Shown piece by piece: positions 6,512 to 59,202 of a stretch of 64,000 nucleotides of DNA (position 1 is the first letter of the stretch; every line of letters begins with the position of its first letter). Made by a program: the position numbers and the translations under genes. The notes beneath the pieces are model-generated. The model was not told where the DNA came from and searched no databases. It saw only the letters and a list, made by a program, of their open reading frames with translations. The stretch is from NCBI GenBank assembly GCA_021234155.1, contig JAJEKV010000012.1:3661789-3725788 (forward strand), in the 5' to 3' direction. The DNA is from Isoetes taiwanensis (taxonomy: Eukaryota; Streptophyta; Lycopodiopsida; Isoetales; Isoetaceae).

Positions 6512-6564
6512 TATATACAAGAAATTTATTGCGGCAGCCAAGGCCGCCGCGAACATTTCTCTTT
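6512..6564 (-). repeat. GC-palindrome terminus, copy A (inverted)
   Basis: Reverse-complement copy of the dispersed motif described at 50720, 54028 and 59124. On the minus strand it reads AGTCGAGAAAGAGAAATG, a GC-rich inverted repeat centred on TT, then ATAAATTTCTTGTATATA. One arm has two substitutions that weaken pairing, so this is the most decayed of the four copies. Confidence 0.75.
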
Positions 6565-8110
6565 CTCGACTCCCTCGAATTTGGGGAAGCGAGTCAGTGC
6601 ATAAGGATATTCATGGACGGCCAAGCAAATATTTCTCTATATTGACTTCCTTATAGATTTGAATTATGGCTAGTAATAATCATTTTAAGAATACATAGGA
6701 TTTAAACCTACAATATTGCCTTGCCAAATGGTTGTCTTCATCAAAAATTTGAAAATTTGAAAATTTCGAACGGGTTCCAAAGCTGCAAATCCTGCAAATT
6801 GAACTTGGGTGTTGCCAAATGGTGGTTGTTGTTTCAAATATGAAAAATCCCACTTTTGAATGGTTTCGAAGCTGCAGATCTAGCAAACCCAACTCAAGTA
6901 TTATGTTTATTGGTGGGGATCTGCGAAAGTGCAATAGGGAATCCTTTTTAGTGGCTAACATTTCATACGTTAACTAGCATTTTAATCAAAACATTTTAAG
7001 GTGGGCCATTGAACCATAGGTCCACTTGGCTGGACCTGGTTGGATGGGACAAACTAAGAGGAAAAACGATAGGAAAAATGTTTTTAGCACATTGCTACAT
7101 ATCGATGAGAGCCGGATCTCGGGACCCCTCATGTTGAAGGTCCTGGCAAGTGTTATTAGGCCGATTTGGATTGGAGGGTCCAAGCCAAATGATTTGAATT
7201 CAGTAATCGTCGCTTGGAGGGCCGATTTGGATGCTCTCTAGCTGCAGATGCTGCTAATGACGATTACTGAATGCATTGTCGCTGAAGAATCACATCAGAA
7301 TCACAATCAAGATCTTACTAAAAACTTTATCGGCACTTAGCATGGATAGCTTAAACTTGCCTTGGAAATGGCAAAAAATGACAATGGATATGAATTTTCC
7401 AAGGGCAGATAATATTCCTTTTTATGATTTTCCCTTAAAGGGTTTTTCCTGAAGGTTATTATTCTTCTATAAAATTTGTGGCCTGAAATTTGTGGCCTGA
7501 AAGTCATGGGCCAATATACATTTTGTGGTTTTTTTCTCAACATCGTTATTCTCAGCATCGCTAAATACTTAGAAGGTTTTCTCGTTGGTTGCTTTTTATG
7601 CAAATAAGTAGGGTTATGCAAAAGTGTTAAGGGCTAATGTTGCTCTGTTACTTTGGCGGAAAATGGCATATTGCTGGAGCTAATCTGATCAACCATTCTC
7701 CAAGTGTTTTGAAGTTGGAATAAAGTTTCGTATTTGCTAGTGGCAGCCGAAAAACAAAGGGATCTAAGGTTTCTTCTACTTTTTCTTCGAGTGATCTAAG
7801 GTGGAGTCTATAAAAAAATATACAAAGCCTTTGGATATTTGGCCCACAGGGACTTTTTGAGGGACTTTTTGCTCTACTCTGCTCTGCAAGCATGGGCAAT
7901 ATGGAAGGTGCAATAAGTAGCTATTTGTGTTAGAGCTGTAAGAGGTATTTTCAACTAGCTTCATAAGGATTTTGGCATGATATTATGGAGTCTAATGATC
8001 ATCCTACTTTGTCTTAATATCTCCTGTTGCTTTATCAATTTGAGCGACAATGGCCTGGTAAACAACACCTCAGCTTATTAAATTTGCCATTTCCACGTCA
8101 AAAAAATTAG
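6565..8110. other. Spacer without a supported gene
   Basis: About 6721-6900 holds two degenerate tandem units of roughly 100 bp (each starting TGCCAAATGG and including an AAGCTGCA.ATC..GCAAA block). The rest shows nothing recognisable. Transaldolase-like coding sequence stops at the donor near 8125; I could not find the remaining C-terminal exons in this stretch. Confidence 0.45.
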
Positions 8111-48461: not shown

Positions 48462-49904
48462 ATGGCGAGTTCGATCAGTGCATCCGTCGCTGAAGAGATG
48501 TCTGTGAGCGAGGCTACTGGGTCGGATTTGTCGGATTCGGCCCAGAGTTCAGATGGAGATGGAGCTTTCTTGCCTAATGTGGAGGAGCTACCAGCAGCAT
48601 TGAGGGATTTCAAGGAATCGGGTGGAGCAGGAAAAATCCAAAGTGGGGTCGATTCCAAGCATCTTGCTTCACTGAGGAAGCTCAAGAAGGCTTCGCGCAG
48701 TTCGGCTGGGAAAGTGGAGGCCCAACAGCCCATGCATCAGGCAGATTCAGAGGTCGATGATCAGGCCCGGGAAAGGGGTTTTTTTTACAGTAAGAAGAGA
48801 AGCAAATGGTGTTGCCTCTCTGAGGATTGTGGGTGGAACGGGAGGAAGAGGGCCAGACTGGAGGAGCATTTGAAGAGAAGGCATGGGCTGGTTGTGGAGG
48901 TTGAGCGGGCAGCTTGGGGCAGGAGAATGCAGGAGCAAGTTAAGCACAGGAGGAGGCCAGGCCGGGACCTGAGCCAATATGTTCAGAAGTATAGGCTGGA
49001 TCCGGTTCACAGGTGGAAGGTTAACAGGAGCCAGTTCTTGAAAAGGGCACAGGCAGATTCAAGAGCAATTGCATATGCCCTACTTGTGGACATGCCCGAT
49101 GGCACGGAGAAGGAATTGGAGGTGAAGAAATATGCCGAGGATTATGTGCAAAGGAGGGCTTTGGAATGGGACAGATCCAAGAACAGGAAAATAGCTCAGT
49201 ACAAGAAGAACATCAAAGAGGCTTATGATTTTGATTGCACAGAAGAACAATGGCACCAGAGGGAGTTGGATGCCAATATTGCTTCGTGCATGGATGAGCT
49301 GCAGTCCGAACTTGTGGAGAAGACATGGTATTTTGACAGTCCAGCACATGATGGGTCGGAATCTAGTGAAGATGTAGCAGAGGAGAGTGCAGTACCGACC
49401 CCTGGAACCCCTGTGACCAAGCTTTCAGCTGATGCAGCTGGGTTGAGCATTAATGCTCCAATTAAGACCTCCCGGGTTGAGGCAGCCGAGAGTTCTAGCC
49501 TGGCTGATCCGGACTCCCCAATCCGCCAAATGCCTGTTCATCTTATACCTGATAGCCCAGGAAGCCAGCAGGCCAGGGTTAGAACCGTCCTCACCTTAGA
49601 AGCTGATTTTGTGCTCAATCCTGATTTCTTGCAAAAAGTTGAAGACTTGCACACCATGCTCCTGTCTGCCAAGAAAAGAAAAGTAAAATCTAGCAGGTCA
49701 GAACTTCATGAATCTTTGTCATATTGTTGTGTCTGGCCACTGCACCTGAAGAGCCCCCTGTGGTCTTGGGGATCAACTCGGATGGGTGAGTTTATGATAA
49801 GCAAAGAAGATGCAGCAGCATTCGAGCACCCGGGTACTGACAATCCAGAGAAAGTCGGTGCTTCTTGGGTCAACGAGGAGTCGGTCGGGTCATATTTTAT
49901 GTAA
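48462..49904 (+). CDS. Nuclear C2H2-like zinc-finger protein, 480 residues
   Basis: Intact frame from a plant-type start (GGGCTATGGCG) to TAA at 49902-49904. Residues 1-50 are Ser/Glu/Asp-rich. One zinc finger is visible: C118-x4-C123-x12-H136-x4-H141 inside a basic patch (KKRSK before it, GRKRAR within it, KRRH after it), likely for nucleic acid. About residues 150-290 are charged and helical (EQVKHRRRPGRDLSQYVQKY...), 300-390 low-complexity acidic/Ser, and a KKRKVK nuclear localisation signal lies near residue 405. I do not recognise a named family. The last codons overlap a perfect donor (ATTTTAT|GTAAGT, 49901), and CAG|GTCAGA near 49697 is another, so the C-terminus after the KKRKVK region may be intron read-through. 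It is the clearest undamaged gene in the window. Confidence 0.75.
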   Translation: MASSISASVAEEMSVSEATGSDLSDSAQSSDGDGAFLPNVEELPAALRDFKESGGAGKIQSGVDSKHLASLRKLKKASRSSAGKVEAQQPMHQADSEVDDQARERGFFYSKKRSKWCCLSEDCGWNGRKRARLEEHLKRRHGLVVEVERAAWGRRMQEQVKHRRRPGRDLSQYVQKYRLDPVHRWKVNRSQFLKRAQADSRAIAYALLVDMPDGTEKELEVKKYAEDYVQRRALEWDRSKNRKIAQYKKNIKEAYDFDCTEEQWHQRELDANIASCMDELQSELVEKTWYFDSPAHDGSESSEDVAEESAVPTPGTPVTKLSADAAGLSINAPIKTSRVEAAESSSLADPDSPIRQMPVHLIPDSPGSQQARVRTVLTLEADFVLNPDFLQKVEDLHTMLLSAKKRKVKSSRSELHESLSYCCVWPLHLKSPLWSWGSTRMGEFMISKEDAAAFEHPGTDNPEKVGASWVNEESVGSYFM

Positions 49905-50719
49905 GTTTACTGTTCCTTTGGCTGCCCCTTTTTTTTATTGTGTTTACAGGGCTGATTTTCCCCAAAACCCAGGATTCTTTCTCATTTCATACCCGTGGAG
50001 TCTCGTAAGTACCACCAGTTCTTTCATCCTCGCCTGCTGTTGGACTATATTTGAGGCATGTTGATACCTTCGGGAAGAAATCGCTACCTCCCAAACCGAG
50101 CTCCTCGCACTTGCTCTTCTATTGGTCGCCAGTTTGTGCCAAGTAAGTAGTCAATTTACATGTTCTTTTTAATCTGAATTTGAACTCATTTCTTGCATTA
50201 TTGGGCCAGTTCCCATTGGAGTTTATTTGTCATCGGGAGATGTAGACATTTGCAATTGTGTTGGAACTCCTGCCTGCTTTTGCTTCATTTCACTCACTTG
50301 GCTGCATTCTCACCGGAGTATACGCCCATTTGGCATGGTAAGGCATCAATTCTGTGTTGCTTTTTTTAATGTATTTTGCAGATCAGACACAACAGAGAAC
50401 AAAGAACAGAGGCTCAACAACCATCTTTCCTTCCATTTCTTTTGGTAGGGATCCAACAGAAGATTTAGGTTACCATACAGAACGTTTTGCTCAAGACAAC
50501 CATGAAAGAGTAAGAATGTTAAACTAATATGGTAAATGAACAACCATGGCGGTATACTTACAAATATATTACAAATATATGACTAAACCCATATTACCAA
50601 AATACTTTGCAGTTGAAGCAAGGACCACGAGCAAATATAAAAGGGAAAGGGTTTGTGTGTGTTTTGTCTTTTGCACCATTCTAAACTATACAAATCCGTG
50701 TTTACAAGAGTAAGTCGGG
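49905..50719. other. Downstream of zinc-finger gene
   Basis: Several splice-like signals (donors CTC|GTAAGT about 50006 and CAA|GTAAGT about 50140; acceptor TGTTTACAG about 49949) suggest continuing exons of the same transcript, but I could not connect them in frame. Confidence 0.35.
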
Positions 50720-50766
50720 GAAGAGAAATGTTCGCGGCGGCCTTGGCCGCCGCGATAAATTTCTTG
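50720..50766 (+). repeat. GC-palindrome terminus, copy B
   Basis: GAAGAGAAATGT, then a perfect inverted repeat (TCGCGGCGGCC, TT, GGCCGCCGCGA), then TAAATTTCTTG. 47 bp, identical in the palindrome to copy C. Here the right flank is TCTGAACATATATA rather than TATATA. Confidence 0.9.
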
Positions 50767-53700
50767 TCTGAACATATATAAAGATTATAGGGACAATTCT
50801 TTGGCATATTCTTTGTCATCGAGGCACTCATCTCGCCCGTCCATTGAATTGAAAATAATTTTGTGCCGTCCAAATTTCAGGGAAGGCCATAGCGAACCAT
50901 GGGCGATGGCAAAAATGACCAGCGATGGCAAATGACACGACCCCGCATAGTTGTGGACGGATCTCGCCGACCTGAAAGGTGTAGCAATGGCGTAGCCTAG
51001 GCATCGGACGTAGAGTTGAACATGAAATATATCCCTTTTGCATGCCAAAATCTGAGGAAGATGCTTTATTCTAAATTCGCCATTCCTACTTTGCTTGGGG
51101 TCGTGGAGAACTTCGCCACAACATCCGCCTCTCAGAGAAATCGATACTTTGCTTGGTTATCTTTTTTCCAGATACCTTTAACCACCGAGCAATCGCATTT
51201 ATGGGCTTTGGGATCTCGTGTTAGCACTTCGGGTTTTGTGGGTCTTATCTCGTGATTGCTTGGCTATAATATAGATAGGCTCGATAATCGGTTCATGTTT
51301 GACTCATGCACGGTTGACACATTGGAGATCTCGCTTCAGCTCATAACACATGTATTTACACATGTATTTGTGTTCTACGCCTGTTGTAGATCCAGAAAAT
51401 CGAGATTGCATTTTGATCCCATATTTTGCGGGCCGAGTTCAAGTGGGAAATGCTTGTTGCGAACATGGCATTCGTGGTTTGTTTCGTAATAATTAATGTT
51501 CGATTAGTATGTTTGTATTGGGAGCTCCGAACAAGAATTATATAATCTTTTTAATGTATTTATCAATCATTCCCTCTTTTTTTGCCATGCATCATTTCAG
51601 TAAAAATATGTTCCAACATGCTATATTCTTATCACAAGTATTACCAAATTCTAAAACCAGTCTTGCAATACATTTGGTCAACTTTGTGATGAAAAGTACA
51701 TTTTCTAGAGATCGTCTAAAGGCATTTGCCAAAAAATTGTGTAGGCATTTGCATGCATTTTTACAAACATACATGTCCCGATTCTGTTTTCCATTGTTTA
51801 GGTATACTTGGAAAGATTTGAGGAGCTGCATAAGGTAACATTTGCAACTTTATGCCAAAGGGCCTTCTTTTCGTAAAAGGTATATTCCTTTTGTTTTATT
51901 TGTGTCATAAATGTCCTTACCCTTGTTATTTCCTTTGTTTTGTTTGTGTCATAAACATCTTTGATGCATATGTATCTCTCGATTTTTTGCACTAGGTGGC
52001 GATCGCATACGGAAAGAGCAGGATTGCACTAGCTTTTATGCAAGGAAACAATGTGTTGTACAACAAATATGCTAAGTTGCTAAGTATGTTTTACAGCTTA
52101 AATCAAGCGGCAAATGAGCATCCCGAGCAATCGCCTTTGATGCGAGGTTACGGTTTTTGATGTGGGCTACTAGATTATCTTGATGTTTGAAATTTGTTTT
52201 AATGTTGGACACTAAATTTGATTGTGTTGCGTGTCTTGCGCCCAATTTGAGGATTATGGAATGCAATCTAATCGATGATAGAAGGCTTATATTGCTTGGT
52301 TGTCTCCTATTTCCAAATGCAAGGCATGTTCAAACTCTTCATGGCGTTCCTTTTAAATGTTAAGTACGAAGTTTGGTATGCCACTATAAATGTCTAGATA
52401 TGCTTGGAGCTATGATCTCCATGTATTTTGAACTATGATTCTTCCTCAAGCAAGATTATTTTTGCACATTTGAAAAGATGCAAGGATCTTGAAGTCAGAG
52501 GGTGGTGAAGTTGCCCAAGCGGCCCATTGTTCCCTTTAGCTTCTTCCTCGTTATCGTGAAGGTAGTGAAACCCATTCTCTTTGATTATTCTAGTGTTCTC
52601 TGTGCTTTGAAATGGTGGATGTTATGCTTCGTGTTCTAAATGCAATGGACGTTAAGATCTTTAAAAGACATCTATTTAAGTTTTATCCGTGATTTAAAAA
52701 TTGATCCGCAGCCATAGCGGATACAAAATCAACCCAAATTTCTATCTACCCTTTTACCTTTTACGACATGTTATACTAATGTAGAAATTTTGCAGCGATT
52801 TTACCTTTGCACATTTATTTGGGGATCCATTTTGCTGGAAATGCTCGTTGTCATTGGGCGCTTCAATGTTGTGCATTTGCAACTATAGCTCAGGTGAATG
52901 CAAACCTTTGAAAAATCGAGCACGAGGTAAATATGCCTAGTTAACTATGTTTCGAAGCCTATCATGTTGCATTTACTACTTAATTTGGCAAATCATTTTG
53001 CTTCTCTCTCAATAAATATTGTATTGAGGACCTGTTTTTCCTCATATTGGGTCATCCAGATGCGTGGCATGGCATGTACAAAGATCGTGCTCATTTTGGC
53101 ACGAAAGGGATATTGTCCGCAGAACCGACTACTTTCAACACATAAGGGGCTAATAAGAAGTGGAATGTGCCCATGCTCCTGTAATAGCATGATGGTCCAA
53201 GCTCATTGAATGTAATCATCAAACGGTGAAAATTCCAATTTTTTCATCATTGTGTTTCCGCATTTTATTTGGGCTTTGATTTTGGGAAAGGTGATCTCGC
53301 TCACTTCATGTCTTCTTGCTTTGCTGTCAACAAACCTTTTTTTTTTAAAGCCCCCAATTTTTGGGACAATGAAATTTTATAGTAGTGTTGTGTCATAGCC
53401 CCTAGAGTGAAGGTATTTAAGAGAATCTTCGCTACGTAAGCATATGAAATATTGCATCTAGGCTCTTGGTCTTTCAAGCAGTGAGGTTGCACATTAGATG
53501 CCATTGGCTCATAATTGCCTCCCATTTGGTGGCCATGATGGCCATGGATGTTGTAATGATGGCCATGTACGTGTGGCAATGCATTGATTATAAGCTTATC
53601 CTTTATTAAATAAGTTAGTGAGGTGGCAATAAACTTGAGTGCATTATGTGAGGTGGCAATAATATTAATTATCTAAATTGTGAGATGGCATGGGCATTGT

Positions 53701-54027
53701 CATTTTGTTACGTCCACAACTTTTTTATATCCCTCATTTTATAACGTTCAAGCATTCAATTTCACGAGGTTTTTAACTACGTGACATAAAGCTTTGAACC
53801 AATTTATTACATGCTTTCACAACATATATAATTGGGAATGTCCGATAGGGATGTCCAGGTGGTAAGAAATGTGAAGCTCTAAAGTTTAACGCATGTTTTT
53901 CCCGGACATTTTTTGCAAGCAGAAAAGAAAAGAAGAAATGATGCTCCAGTTCTATTAGGCCAACACTAAACATGCATGTCAATGATCACAAAATGGTCTA
54001 TAAAAATCGGGGTGTAACGAAGTTGGT
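50767..54027. other. Long spacer between palindrome copies B and C
   Basis: No supported gene in 3.3 kb. Short frames (for example 50785-51048 minus, 51509-51838 plus) have no domain. If copy C is the 3' end of a rolling-circle element, part of this spacer would be its body. Confidence 0.45.
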
Positions 54028-54074
54028 GAAGAGAAATGTTCGCGGCGGCCTTGGCCGCCGCGATAAATTTCTTG
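54028..54074 (+). repeat. GC-palindrome terminus, copy C
   Basis: Same 47-bp sequence as copy B, preceded by AGTTGGT and followed by TATATATAAACATTG. It abuts the left arm of the fold-back element at 54071-54518. Confidence 0.9.
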
Positions 54075-54518
54075 TATATATAAACATTGTATTAATTATT
54101 AATATTGTACATTCAACCATTGTACATGGCATTCTATATATTAAGAACCATTGAATAAACCCCCTGACCCCTCCCCAAGTTGTTTTTGGCCGATATTCGC
54201 CAAGCAGGCGCCCATCTGTTAACTGGCTCGGACCGTTGGATGTCGGTTTCGGGCGATCTTGGCCATCGCTAAGCGCGACGAGTTTTTTAGCAGGTTTTAG
54301 TTAACTGTTAGTTACGAATACAAAGGAAAACCAAAGGTTGTGAAGCGCATTGTATGTATGTACGGGCGTATATATTTGGCCTGCGCGAAACAACTTGGGG
54401 GGGCGGGGGTCTGGGGGGTTTATTCAATGGTTCAATTTCTTAATATATAGACTGCCATGTACAATGGTTGAATGTACAATATTAATAATTAATACAATGT
54501 TTCAATACATATATAAGT
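54071..54518. repeat. Long fold-back (inverted repeat) element
   Basis: Left arm about 54071-54190 and right arm about 54385-54518 are inverted copies of about 110-120 bp. Shared strings include AAACATTGTATTAATTATTA, ATTCAACCATTGTACATGGC, CATTGAATAAACCCCC and CCAAGTTGTTT, with a few indels. The loop is about 200 bp and GC-rich in part. No coding potential: a MITE/fold-back type element. Target-site duplication not identified. Confidence 0.85.
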
Positions 54519-56829
54519 CAGGTACATTTGTTCGCACCCCTAATATTTCTGCCCTGGAAAAAAATGTGGGCATGACACGTGCCCTATAAAAAATAAAAAA
54601 AATGAAAAACTAAATTCTATTAGTGTGACGTCACCGTGCTCTCCTGCTGTCTACGCCCCCTTTCTTTCTTCCCCTGCAAGCAATCGTTCACGGGCATTTA
54701 CAAGCAATCTCGCCGGGCGGAGTATTCACGGTTGTTGCCGCTCGCCTCGCTATGGCAAAGAAGATTTTGGCAGCCATAGCCACAAGCTTCCGGTACTGGC
54801 TTGTTCATCCTATGCATCGGCAATTAATTTGCAATCTCTCCGAGAATTGGCAAACCCTTTAAAATCGGCAAGATTTGCCCCCTCGTTCTTTGCTTTCTAG
54901 AATCGGTTGTTCTTGCCACCCCTATAGAATCGGTAGATATGCAAGCTCTTGATCTTCAACTGAGCCCCGCACTCCTCCCCGATTCTAAAAACAGTTCGAG
55001 AGAAATTTTCAAGGATGCCACGTCTTGACACAGTGTCCTACTGCACCAACAGAAAGCTTCCTTCTAGAAACAGAGTTCGTCAATCTTTGGAAGCACCAAA
55101 CTGTAAGTGGGTTTTCCTCTAATTTTTGTTCTTCACGCTTGTGGCCATAGCCACTTATTCTTCCATATTTATTTCCTTCCGGCTTTCGGGCCTCCATAAC
55201 GGCAACCATACGCTCCAATTGGACTCTTCAGACGAGCAAGCATTGGTGCATTTTTAGCCCAACAAAGTTCAACTATTTATTTATTAGATGTGATTTTGTT
55301 GTTTCAAGCCGGTTGAGTGAGACTCAAATCCTCGCCATTTGCCAAATTTCAAAAGAGGGAGCTCGTTTATAATCTTGATTTCGGCAGACGCAGTATAATT
55401 AAACCCCGCAACCTTGGGCTCCTTGAAAAATAAGCTTAGAAATTGGCCCGATCAATAGTAAGAGCCTTTAGCTCTTTCTTGGAGAGCCGAATTATATTAG
55501 GCTCCGACTTCGAATTGTTGGAGTCAGGCTTAATCCCAAAATGGTCATTTCTTTATGTATGCGGTCTATTATCGCGCTCTTTCCAAACCGCATTCAAACT
55601 CGGGAAAAGATAGGTCAGGCCGAGAGTAGGATTAAATTGATGCGCCTGTTGCCCAGAGAAGTAATCAAAGGTCGTTTGTAAAAACGACTCTTTGTAAAGA
55701 GCATCTATTTGGGCCTCTCTTGAGGCAATCAAAAACTGTGGCCCCTGTCCCCATGGCCGCACTGACAAGAATTAGAACCCAGTGTGAATCTCTTTAGAGA
55801 TTTGGGGAAAAAATAGGGGCGGACTTGAAGCATAGGCTAAATTTGTAGCCCACCATCATAATCGACATGAAGATAATATAAAACCTGGGAATTTTTGGGT
55901 TCCTACAGAAATCTTTTGTATTGCCCTCCTTCACTCTAATAATTTCACCGCTCTTCAAGCCCGCTCCCAAAAGATTGAAAGTTGTGAGGGAATAGAGATA
56001 AGAATCCTTAATAGATGCCACCCAGCCATTAATTTTGCATTCAATATGATTCTTCAACAGGTAAATCGAAAGAAAATTAACAAGTAAAAACTCCAACCTA
56101 CTTCTTGGCGGTATAATGATAGAGAAAAGAAGCAAAAAAGTGAGAAAATTATGAGGCTTTGATTCCAGAAACTATGGCAGCTCAAATTTCGCAGGCCTCT
56201 TCAGGCAATAGAACTGGCAGTGCATGTTATGTGCCCCTTTCCCTACGATCATGCTCTCTGAACCGGTAAATTAAATTAAATATTCTGTGTGATATCACAC
56301 ACTGTGTAGATATTGCCGTAGATATTTCATTCATAGCTCTTAAATCTGTCTGAGATTGCCAGAAAGACACAAGGGTCTTTTTCATTAACTCATTCACGGC
56401 TTAAATTCGAAGCCAACGCATCTTTCTTTCACTCTTTGGAGCCATTATTTTTGCAGAGGCTAGCATTAAAAAATGATAGCAATTTTAGCTGAAAATTTGT
56501 GAGAATCATGCCAGTTTTTCCAAGGATTTCTGTGCTCTCAAAACTTCTGCCCTTTTTCATGATATGGGTGACGGTAGTCATAATGTCTGTTCTGGCCATA
56601 CATTCTAGAATCAGGTTCAAAATGGGTCGGAATTAGCTGCCTTCATACTCGCCAAAGACAAACAACAAAATTTGGGGCAAATCAGAGTGTTATCACCACA
56701 GAATTAGATCGATGTTCTAGCCTTCTTTTGCACAATATTCATCTTTCTTGCTTCGGCAAATTGAAATCCTCAAAGAAAAGTTGTGTCACAGGCAAATGAT
56801 CCTCAGTATAAACTGGAAACATTTTGAAT
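54519..56829. other. Spacer with promoter-like start of an unidentified transcription unit
   Basis: A perfect bZIP/CRE-type TGACGTCA lies at 54626-54633, followed by a pyrimidine-rich leader and an Ala/Ser/Arg-rich frame (54625-54900). ATG 54750 opens MAKKILAAIATSFRYWLVHP, a transit-peptide-like but short frame (about 36 codons). A good donor (AACT|GTAAGT, about 55102) follows. This could be the first exon of the PPR gene that is decayed at 56.8-58.8 kb. No gene is supported at 55260-56829. Confidence 0.35.
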
Positions 56830-56987
56830 TTTGTAAACTGTTGCCAGCATACATCCAGTAACACCATTAATTGATATGTATCATAAGTGTGGTTATTGTG
56901 AAGATGCACAGGAAACCTTTGATAAGATGTCAGTTCAAGACATTGTTTCGTGTACTTTAATTGCAGGATATGTTGAAATGGACTCAG

Positions 56988-58115
56988 TGTTAAAATTTGA
57001 CGGTTTTCTAATGACAGGCAAAATAATTTTATGCCTTTCGCATGACAGAAAGTTCTCAAATTCCAACCTTTCAAATGCCGGACAAAAATTTAAAATGACA
57101 GAATCCAAGTTTTTAGTAAAAAAATATAGAAAAAATACCAATTTGTATTAGTTGCATTATAACTCAAACAAGAGTACATAAATGGATCAAGTAACGAGTG
57201 GCATTGCTCTCCTGTCTTCTGCTGTATACCAGTACTTAAAATATGCTTGCCAATCTATAGATTCAAATGGTTCATCACACAATGAGACCAACATTGTTGC
57301 ATCAAGTGTCTCTAGGTTCATACGAGTTCTTATAGTACTCTTGATAGCATTTTGGCGAGAAAAACCTCGCTCGCAACTTGCTATGCTTCCAGGAATGACC
57401 ATGCAACATTGCATAAATTCATTAGGGCCGAAAAACTGTTTCACCAACTATCACAAGTTCCATTTTCATCTCTACAAATAGACCAAGCCACCATCGTACC
57501 TTTATTCTTCACAGCCCTATACATTGCCCCAACAAAGTCTTCTCTCTCACTTAAACATCGTAGCCGATCAATCTTTGAAGCAAATTTCAAAAGTGAAGTT
57601 TCCAGCCATTCTGTAGTTTGTTTATCTCTATCCACATTATTCAAAGGATATGCAATACGAATCGATTCGGCGGCACAGTAGCTCGGCCTTTTCCCAAATT
57701 CCCAATTTTCCCCGCCAAAAAAAAAAGCGTGTATATAGCAGAATACAAATAGTGTTCAATTTTGTTGGATATAATTAAAGGTTGGCAAATTGCATTGACG
57801 ACGAGTTAAATTTGACGACGCATATTAATTATTATAGTAACCATTACCGAAACTTTTTATTTATGGTGATATATGTAGAAAATACAGGCATAAACCATAT
57901 TACATTAAATATATTATATGGATGAGCTGTAAGAAAAAATGACAGGCAAATCTACATTTTTAGCCTTTCAAATGATGTGTAAATATTTTTCTTGTCTTTC
58001 CGATGACAGGCATTTAACTATTTGATGCCCGTCATATGCAGGGCAAAAAAAATTTCTACCCATTTTGACGGGCAAAATAGTCAAAAACGGGCATGAAAGC
58101 CGTCAAATTTTAACA
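56988..58115. mobile_element. hAT-derived non-autonomous insertion, 1128 bp
   Basis: Perfect 16-bp terminal inverted repeats (TGTTAAAATTTGACGG at 56988-57003 and its complement ending at 58115). Inside each end lie further related strings (ATGACAGGCAAA, CTTTC..ATGACAG). The minus strand carries a decayed hAT transposase C-terminus (next entry). The flanks (TTGAAATGGACTCAG to the left, TTGAATGGACTTAG to the right) look like a 14-15-bp duplication with one indel and one substitution, longer than the 8 bp usual for hAT. Confidence 0.75.
57187..57660 (-). pseudogene. hAT transposase C-terminal (dimerisation) domain remnant
   Basis: Two minus-strand segments in different frames: EWLETSLLKFASKIDRLRCL (about 57550-57610), and then IPGSIASCERGFSRQNAIKS followed by TIRTRMNLETLDATMLVSLC (57260-57390). 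The IPxSxASCERGFSxQNxIKxxxRxRxxxETLDAxMxxSL pattern is the hallmark of the hAT C-terminal dimerisation region. The N-terminal zinc finger and catalytic core are missing. Confidence 0.82.
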
Positions 58116-58472
58116 TTGAATGGACTTAGCAAGGAAGCGCTCCGCTTTTTCGAAAAGATGCAAGTGGAAGGTATTTTGCCAAATGGTGTGGCATTTGTAT
58201 CTGGCTTGAAAGCCTCTGGCAATATAGGAGCCATAGTAAAGGGCCAAGAAATGCATGATAAGATTCTACAACAGGGTTTTGAAAGAGACATTTTTGTTGG
58301 TGTGGCTTTGATTGACATGTATGTGAAGAGTGGTTTACTCTCAGTGGCACGACAGGTCTTTGATATGCTGCCCAATAAGAACCTAATAATCTGGGATGCA
58401 ACGATAAGAGGTTATAGTATAAATTATCAAGGTAATTTGACTATAAAATGTTTCGCAGATATGCAAGAATCT

Positions 58473-58524
58473 ACAGCATCACATTTGTATGTCTTCAGAC
58501 AGCATCACATTTGTATGTCTTCTT
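58473..58524 (+). repeat. 26-bp tandem duplication in PPR pseudogene
   Basis: ACAGCATCACATTTGTATGT... starts at 58473 and again at 58499. The 26-bp period is not a multiple of three and moves the PPR reading frame from the 58065-58595 frame to the 58489-58779 frame. Confidence 0.9.
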
Positions 58525-59123
58525 GCAACATGCAGCCGTGGTGGTATTCTGGTCAAAGGCCGGCAATATTTGAAGTTAATGAGAGAAAAATATGATATCC
58601 ACCCAACCAATGATCATTATACTTGCATGATTGATCTCCTTGCACGATCTGGATGTTTGCATGAGGCATTGAAATTGCTCGAACTTTCAACATGTACATC
58701 TATAGAAACATGGATAGCTTTGCTCAACACCTGTAAGAATTATAAGGAAGCAGAAATAGGATTCAGATGCTTTCTGTAGCTTAAAATGCATCCAGAGCAT
58801 TCTACTTCCTATGTGCTTATGGCAAACATTTAGGCAAGCATTGGCAGGTGAAATGATAAAGGTGGAATAACGTTATTAAGAAAGCATACAAAGGCAGGGA
58901 GAAGAATTGCAAAAAGCTTGAAGTAAGAATTCACATGGATTTAAGGAGAATAACCAAAAGCAGTTTGATGGCGCATTGTAAATAATGCAGTTTTTTTATG
59001 AAGTCATGGAACAAACATTTAGGTTTTTTCGACTACATCCTTTTCTGTTAGAGTTTGAATTGAGAAAGTTTGCATTAAAATGCCCTCCATAATAATTGGG
59101 TTTAGAACTAATTCCAAGTTAGT

Positions 59124-59163
59124 GAAGAGAAATGTTCGCGGCGGCGCCGCGATAAATTTCTTG
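59124..59163 (+). repeat. GC-palindrome terminus, copy D (shortened)
   Basis: Like copies B and C but 7 bp shorter in the palindrome (TCGCGGCGGCGCCGCGA, 8-bp arms around one G). Preceded by AGTTAGT and followed by TATATATAA. The shortening keeps full self-complementarity. Confidence 0.88.
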
Positions 59164-59202
59164 TATATATAATAGGGTGTGTATGGGGTCCAAATTTTTT
59201 TT

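Follow-up and report, generated by a model that had tools for sequence, protein, structure and literature searches.

What kind of element would leave the same short GC-rich palindrome at the end of four otherwise unrelated stretches of DNA? This question is raised by a 64,000-nucleotide segment of the Isoetes taiwanensis genome (contig JAJEKV010000012.1, positions 3,661,789 to 3,725,788; hereafter the window, within which all unlabelled coordinates are given). An earlier note had pointed to copies of the palindrome at 6512 on the minus strand and at 50720, 54028 and 59124 on the plus strand, and had suggested that they are the 3' ends of rolling-circle transposons, or Helitrons. All four copies are present at these places and on these strands, and we conclude that they are almost certainly the 3' (right-hand) ends of a single Helitron family of high copy number whose members, as judged from their sequences, have unrelated bodies. 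The Helitron 3'-end architecture proposed in that note is supported by a sharp right end, a 5' end that begins with TC, empty insertion sites, tandem junctions, a copy with a Rep-helicase (RepHel) between both ends, and a captured gene fragment with a defined breakpoint. Throughout, LTS and RTS designate the 5' and 3' end modules, respectively, and the four copies are called A, B (belonging to element B1), C (at 54028, the 3' end of element B2) and D.

The block common to the four copies spans about 45-60 bp, close to the 60 bp first described, and its last bases are CTTG (50763-50766, 54071-54074 and 59160-59163 on the plus strand and 6518-6521 on the minus strand, where the hairpin and CTTG of copy A together occupy 6518-6580). 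Further upstream the copies are unlike each other. A 44-mer of the shared terminus, consisting of the hairpin, 11 nt and CTTG, had 3,641 matches with at most 3 mismatches in the 1.66-Gb genome (1,857 forward and 1,784 reverse), versus none for a reversed control; as 28 of its positions differ from those of its reverse complement, each copy was counted once. For closer comparison we cut out loci at 39 places from the first similarity search, for which B1 was the query, and at 20 of 100 listed exact matches. Among these loci, likeness stops abruptly to the right of CTTG, the exceptions being four tandem copies and one pair (L023 and L024) that looks like a segmental duplication, while to the left of the shared terminus the bodies sort into many unrelated groups.

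Folded as single-stranded DNA, the hairpins of B and C reach -16.9 kcal/mol (z -5.75, with 0 of 200 shuffles as good) and have a 10-bp stem, with 11 nt from hairpin to end; in the centroid structure of B1 the hairpin occupies 50732-50755 (plus strand). The copy D hairpin, with a 7-bp stem, is predicted at -10.7 kcal/mol (z -2.98, 3 of 200 shuffles as good), and that of copy A, for which the folded stretch stopped short of CTTG, at -10.2 kcal/mol (z -2.98, 1 of 200 shuffles). The single-strand prediction also contains an outer stem (GAAAT/ATTTC), by which the cut site comes to lie close to the main hairpin. A repeat finder run with default settings on 50400-51000 returned no inverted repeats, so the hairpin is absent from its output. 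At two loci, L013 and L015, the sequence just upstream of the hairpin is partly duplicated beside an intact 3' end.

The opposite end of the elements could be recognized because there are 56 places at which CTTG is fused directly to it. Four copies, namely B1 in the window, L006, L021 and L025, have CTTG immediately followed by TCTNAACATATATAA, which is the 5' terminus of another element, and L059 has one more such fusion upstream of its own terminus. The 56 genome places of the fused CTTG/TC form were found with at most 1 mismatch, and a reversed control gave 0. The 5' end thus identified is TC(T/A)NNACATATATAA. In searches with the DNA of two 5' sides, 25 of 43 and 28 of 42 rows (queries included) begin at query base 1, and many end after about 83-156 bp; the 5' side is a short conserved module, beyond which the bodies are unrelated. 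As each query itself begins at TC, the left boundary rests on the left flanks, which were fetched for 40 of 53 rows, leaving out the queries, C1027 and C1038, C1030:9036383 and eight rows of C1068. Thirty-seven of these flanks are distinct, and they are unrelated to one another. The head-to-tail CTTG/TC junctions fit rolling-circle transposition without proving it. Separately, nine B2-like 5' ends lie within 0.25 Mb on C1068 (4.02-4.25 Mb), perhaps reflecting local amplification.

Two elements in the window have both ends. B2 (50767-54074, plus strand, 3,308 bp) lies head-to-tail behind B1; thus, the plus-strand terminus that the earlier note placed at 50720 stands, and its right flank turned out to be the 5' end of a second, directly adjoining element. 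The LTS module of B2 occupies 50767-50899, as defined by several rows that cover query bases 1-133 and by the unrelated left flanks of its relatives, and its RTS module, delimited by fold and comparison, occupies 53953-54074, with the hairpin at 54040-54063. B2 is also found with both ends on C1109 and C1030, and with nearly both on C1039. Sequence comparison identified a second, inner LTS module, TCACAACATATATAA, at 53817-53952 (plus strand), which together with the 3' end of B2 bounds a 258-bp unit. We considered and rejected the possibility that the 54028 copy is an independent 258-bp element only: copies of B2 continue across it as far as the same terminus, which makes B2 the principal unit and the inner LTS a nested one. 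The second complete element, D (54502-59163, plus strand), measures 4,662 bp including a nested insert at 56985-58118, and was delimited by its LTS, an empty site and a copy on C1071 that has the same LTS and RTS 3,688 bp apart and lacks the insert. Another copy of D, on C1038, showed no LTS in the 4.85 kb fetched.

For B1, we could define the 3' part (50374-50766, plus strand), the portion of the query (bases 425-817) shared by other copies whose left body differs; it is joined at 50373/50374 to an unrelated repeat. Neither inspection for an LTS nor an LTS profile search found the 5' end of B1, and the same was true of copy A, for which neither approach gave a convincing minus-strand LTS. A short B1 beginning at 50374 was rejected, because relatives of B1 extend further left and because the left repeat does not resume after 59163 in the window.

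If the units transposed as such, sites that lack them should match their joined flanks. The joined flanks of D (...AATACAATGTT|TATATATAATAGGGTGTG...) correspond to C206:121690-121870, with identity extending 48 letters leftward and 37 rightward from the joint and no target-site duplication. This stretch of C206 is an end of a terminal inverted repeat (TIR) element, referred to here as the TIR repeat, whose other part occupies 54075-54501, and a second TIR-repeat end, on C908, is similar to D's joined flanks with few changes. A combined search with the joined flanks of seven further units gave spanning matches for four. Two of these are exact at the joint, L051 (196 of 210 columns identical overall) and L041, as is D, and there is no constant target-site duplication. 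The L056 empty site has an extra TA; for the element on C11, whose joined flanks are spanned by nine rows, there is an extra TT relative to two paralogues and a 4-6 bp difference from two others. The extra TA may represent paralogue variation or an excision footprint, the latter having been described for maize Helitrons (PMC10095026, PMC4683698).

The empty sites bear on an alternative that the earlier note had left standing, namely that the hairpin is the whole element, a palindromic miniature inverted-repeat transposable element (MITE) or short TIR element that a DDE transposase mobilizes. The core is indeed a strong inverted repeat, TA begins every counted right flank as a TA duplication would produce, and the additional TA at L056 could be taken in the same sense. 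However, the units measure 0.26-9.3 kb and have unrelated bodies, the three empty sites of D, L051 and L041 are exact at the joint, and comparison by eye of the LTS TCTNAACATATATAA with the reversed RTS CAAGAAATTTAT reveals no inverted match. The insert nested in D provides an inner control. In the manner of a hAT element, it has CARTGTTAAAATTTGACGG ends and does show an 8-bp duplication (AATGGACT), together with a weak, below-cutoff match to the hAT dimerisation domain on the minus strand (E 0.0098), and we refer to it as hAT-like. On the strength of the exact empty sites and unrelated bodies we rejected the MITE explanation, which we regard as extremely unlikely.

Analysis of the flanks further revealed a preference for a particular target. 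Among 62 distinct right flanks (four tandem flanks left out), TA directly follows CTTG in 62. The TATATA that had been assigned to the shared element is instead host target sequence. A TAA starts at position 7 in 30 flanks and at position 8 in 12, compared with 0-7 flanks at each other offset from 3 to 30, and a start within positions 6-8 occurs in 42 flanks, compared with 5 in each of two control windows. With 39 loci drawn from the B1 query, the sample is weighted towards B1 relatives, though all flanks are distinct; five right flanks of B2 copies from elsewhere were fetched, of which four are among the 62. On the left, the base preceding TC in the 37 distinct flanks is A in 23, T in 13 and G in 1, position -2 is T in 33, and position -3 is T in 24 and C in 9. 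Judged by these flanks, the family departs from the textbook pattern in its CTTG end, its apparent insertion at A^T or T^T and its phased TA-N4/5-TAA target.

Helentrons, or Helitron2-type elements, insert between T and T, lack a CTRR end and have short asymmetric inverted terminal repeats. Like the Isoetes family they are of the rolling-circle type, and the T that ends 13 of 37 left flanks, the position of D in GTT^TATA and the non-CTRR end could all be accommodated by such an assignment. It is at odds with the A that ends 23 of 37 left flanks, making A^T the commoner target here, with the lack of any LTS-RTS inverted repeat detectable by eye, and with the TC start and the hairpin 11 nt before the end. 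We therefore consider membership in this group very unlikely.

The captured fragment and its breakpoint come from D. Two frames in D, 58065-58592 and 58489-58776, match PPR repeats (Pfam), and the PPR-coding stretch, given here from 58119, extends on the plus strand to a clean 3' breakpoint at 58959/58960, beyond which lies a 204-bp RTS module (58960-59163, hairpin 59136-59152). C1100 and C79 match D from 58400, the start of the query, to 58959; past the equivalent point the two remain alike for 145 bp (139 identical), and the 227-257 bp fetched contain no Helitron end. Conversely, more than 20 other places carry D's 204-bp 3' module without the PPR stretch. The two parts occur together on C1071 and C1038, indicating that the chimera has multiplied, and C1045 and C916 resemble additional copies with an interruption at 58992-58996. 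The earlier suggestion that such elements capture genes thus holds for copy D.

Chimeric junctions such as those at 50373/50374 and 58959/58960 might also arise if recombination or gene conversion between old copies, rather than transposition of whole units, had been the main way in which the shared 3' end spread. Consistent with that view, only 7 of the 20 loci with exact matches have a recognized LTS, of which six fall inside the 2.5 kb fetched and one appeared after extension. Against it, both ends recur at more than one place for B2 (the window, C1109 and C1030) and for D (the window and C1071), and the three empty sites are exact at the joint. We judge this route to be highly unlikely as the main source of the copies, and favor transposition by a Helitron family.

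A candidate source of the transposition machinery was found among the 20 exact-match loci. The copy on C11 (L044) is 9.3 kb long, with its LTS at 243031 and RTS end at 252309, and has one stop-free frame of 1,463 codons between the two ends. This frame matches Helitron_like_N (E 2.1e-31, 110 bits) and contains RGLPHAH, a Walker A motif and YLYGYIYKG; we take RGLPHAH and YLYGYIYKG to be the HUH and two-tyrosine motifs. A PIF1 helicase match lies upstream of the terminus (E 1.8e-46, Pfam). A second, overlapping frame (L044:1076-1444) has no Pfam match and presumably encodes the end of the helicase, in which case the reading would be split by an intron or frameshift, and we make no claim that this copy is active. 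A search with the C11 protein yielded 3,846 candidates, of which 43 were scored, and these contained 48 matched stretches. Two of these Rep relatives lie 4-7 kb downstream, on the same strand, of independently found LTS modules (C1050:240531 and C1027:6002483), for which the chance expectation is about 0.01 by a post hoc hand estimate that uses ~100 LTS, 43 loci and 8 kb. Pfam matches were obtained for 3 of 10 frames in the window and for 1 of 10 at the exact-match loci.

Several observations count against assignment to a Helitron family. The coding evidence comes from one copy followed to both ends. Of the Rep-helicase loci that we drew from 150 listed for their high scores, none of 15 with Helitron_like_N has a sense-oriented RTS in the 6 kb about 3-9 kb downstream, and none of 20 has an LTS in the 3 kb upstream. 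The second test is weak: in the C11 copy the LTS lies 4.9 kb and the RTS 4.4 kb from Rep, so 3 kb upstream is too short and only the downstream test is fair. The Helitron_like_N score of C11 is below those of all 150 listed loci, and the high-scoring loci without these ends may belong to other families. Thirteen of the 20 exact-match loci lack a recognizable LTS, four of them having 3-mismatch matches only, which we took as chance. The 3' end is CTTG rather than the canonical CTRR, A precedes TC in only 23 of 37 distinct left flanks, and the right flank of one uncounted B2 copy (L162, C1109) begins with TCTTGTATTC, that is with TC and not TA. Among the empty sites, two of five (L056 and C11) differ by at least 2 bp, in the L041 match no more than 162 of 205 columns are identical and a gap lies 21 bp beyond the joint on its right side, and no spanning match was found for the joined flanks of L058, L055 or the inner 258-bp unit. 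Finally, the evidence consists of sequence, and no transposition event was seen.

The ends, the hairpin, the lack of duplication, RepHel and the tandem junctions fit rolling-circle transposition as described for Helraiser. By analogy with other Helitrons, from which we infer the nicking, helicase and hairpin-stop steps, the Rep part of RepHel would nick at the 5' TC end and the Pif1-like helicase would peel off one strand, until the GC hairpin near the 3' end made the machinery stop and cut after CTTG. The strand would then be inserted at W^T in a YTW^TA-N4/5-TAA target, with no target bases duplicated. Faulty termination or repair could join neighboring or host sequence to the 3' module, giving rise to unrelated bodies such as that with the PPR fragment in D, and head-to-tail pairs such as B1-B2 are a recognized by-product.

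Other features of the window adjoin these elements. Upstream of B1 there is a 480-amino-acid open frame with no Pfam match (48462-49904), followed by a segment (49950-50373) that is repeated at more than 30 places among the matches listed. When the outer end of the TIR repeat that lies left of B1 was sought, the copy at 59170 was the sole match. The TIR repeat at 54075-54501 lies between B2 and D, and its TATATATAA ends are where the two Helitrons lie; three of four TIR-repeat ends fetched from C206 and C908 continue into CCCATA(C/T)ACACCCTATTA. Within D, 54900-56609 is a segment of at least 1.7 kb, parts of which also occur at C919, C1030, C81, C1049 and C1076 (88-98% identity).

Comparison with described systems places the Isoetes elements among the Helitrons. 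Canonical plant Helitrons (maize, rice Mothra, wheat Xuan-Feng) likewise have a 5' TC, a hairpin 10-15 nt before the 3' end, no target-site duplication, mostly non-autonomous members and a RepHel partner (PMC2267711, PMC4683698, PMC13286980). Theirs end in CTAG/CTRR, whereas the Isoetes family ends in CTTG and less regularly has A before TC. A CTTG 3' end is also reported for HELPO2 of Pleurotus ostreatus (PMC4289320), a fungal Helitron family that resembles the Isoetes one in this reported end. Helraiser, the reconstructed bat Helibat1, shares RepHel, a hairpin stop signal, an A+T-rich preference on the 3' side and TT as a minor target; read-through of its stop signal captures neighboring DNA, and some products of vectors without the hairpin ended in CTTG, which has also been seen in maize (PMC4778049). 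Its normal end is CTAG, while CTTG is the regular end here. In maize, a head-to-tail pair with a G/T junction has been described, in a paper that also cites head-to-tail pairs from a bat (PMC2267711). Since CTTG ends, T-T targets and head-to-tail pairs are already in print, we regard the family as a variant of known Helitrons and, its end being CTTG and not CTRR, file it as a CTTG-ended one, in line with the variant group that the earlier note had envisaged.

The target motif has less precedent. Published Helitrons prefer A^T and sometimes use T^T (PMC4683698), Helraiser prefers A+T-rich DNA most strongly on the 3' side (PMC4778049), and in rice the 3' flanks are A+T-rich; a maize survey found no flank consensus except A, unlike the phased TA-N4/5-TAA seen to the right of the Isoetes insertions (PMC2575219). 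In the portions of the literature on Helitron targets that our search covered, we did not recognize this phased motif, though logos in a wheat paper (PMC13286980) could show something similar, and the motif may therefore be new. We tentatively propose a lineage-specific target rule, in which Rep would read YTW^TA plus a TAA box one short step downstream, a site that in part resembles its own cut site, CTTG^TA. Sites would then be chosen by base sequence and not by A+T-richness alone, and the outer stem GAAAT/ATTTC would seem to draw the cut site into the hairpin.

For the genome of I. taiwanensis, a practical consequence is that search programs that insist on a CTRR end for Helitrons can be expected to overlook or misplace this family, which has more than 3,600 matches, and with it the gene fragments in its members. 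For Helitrons more broadly, whose targets are described in the literature consulted as AT or TT in A+T-rich DNA, the phased motif amounts to an explicit proposal, open to testing, for how a RepHel might select where to insert.

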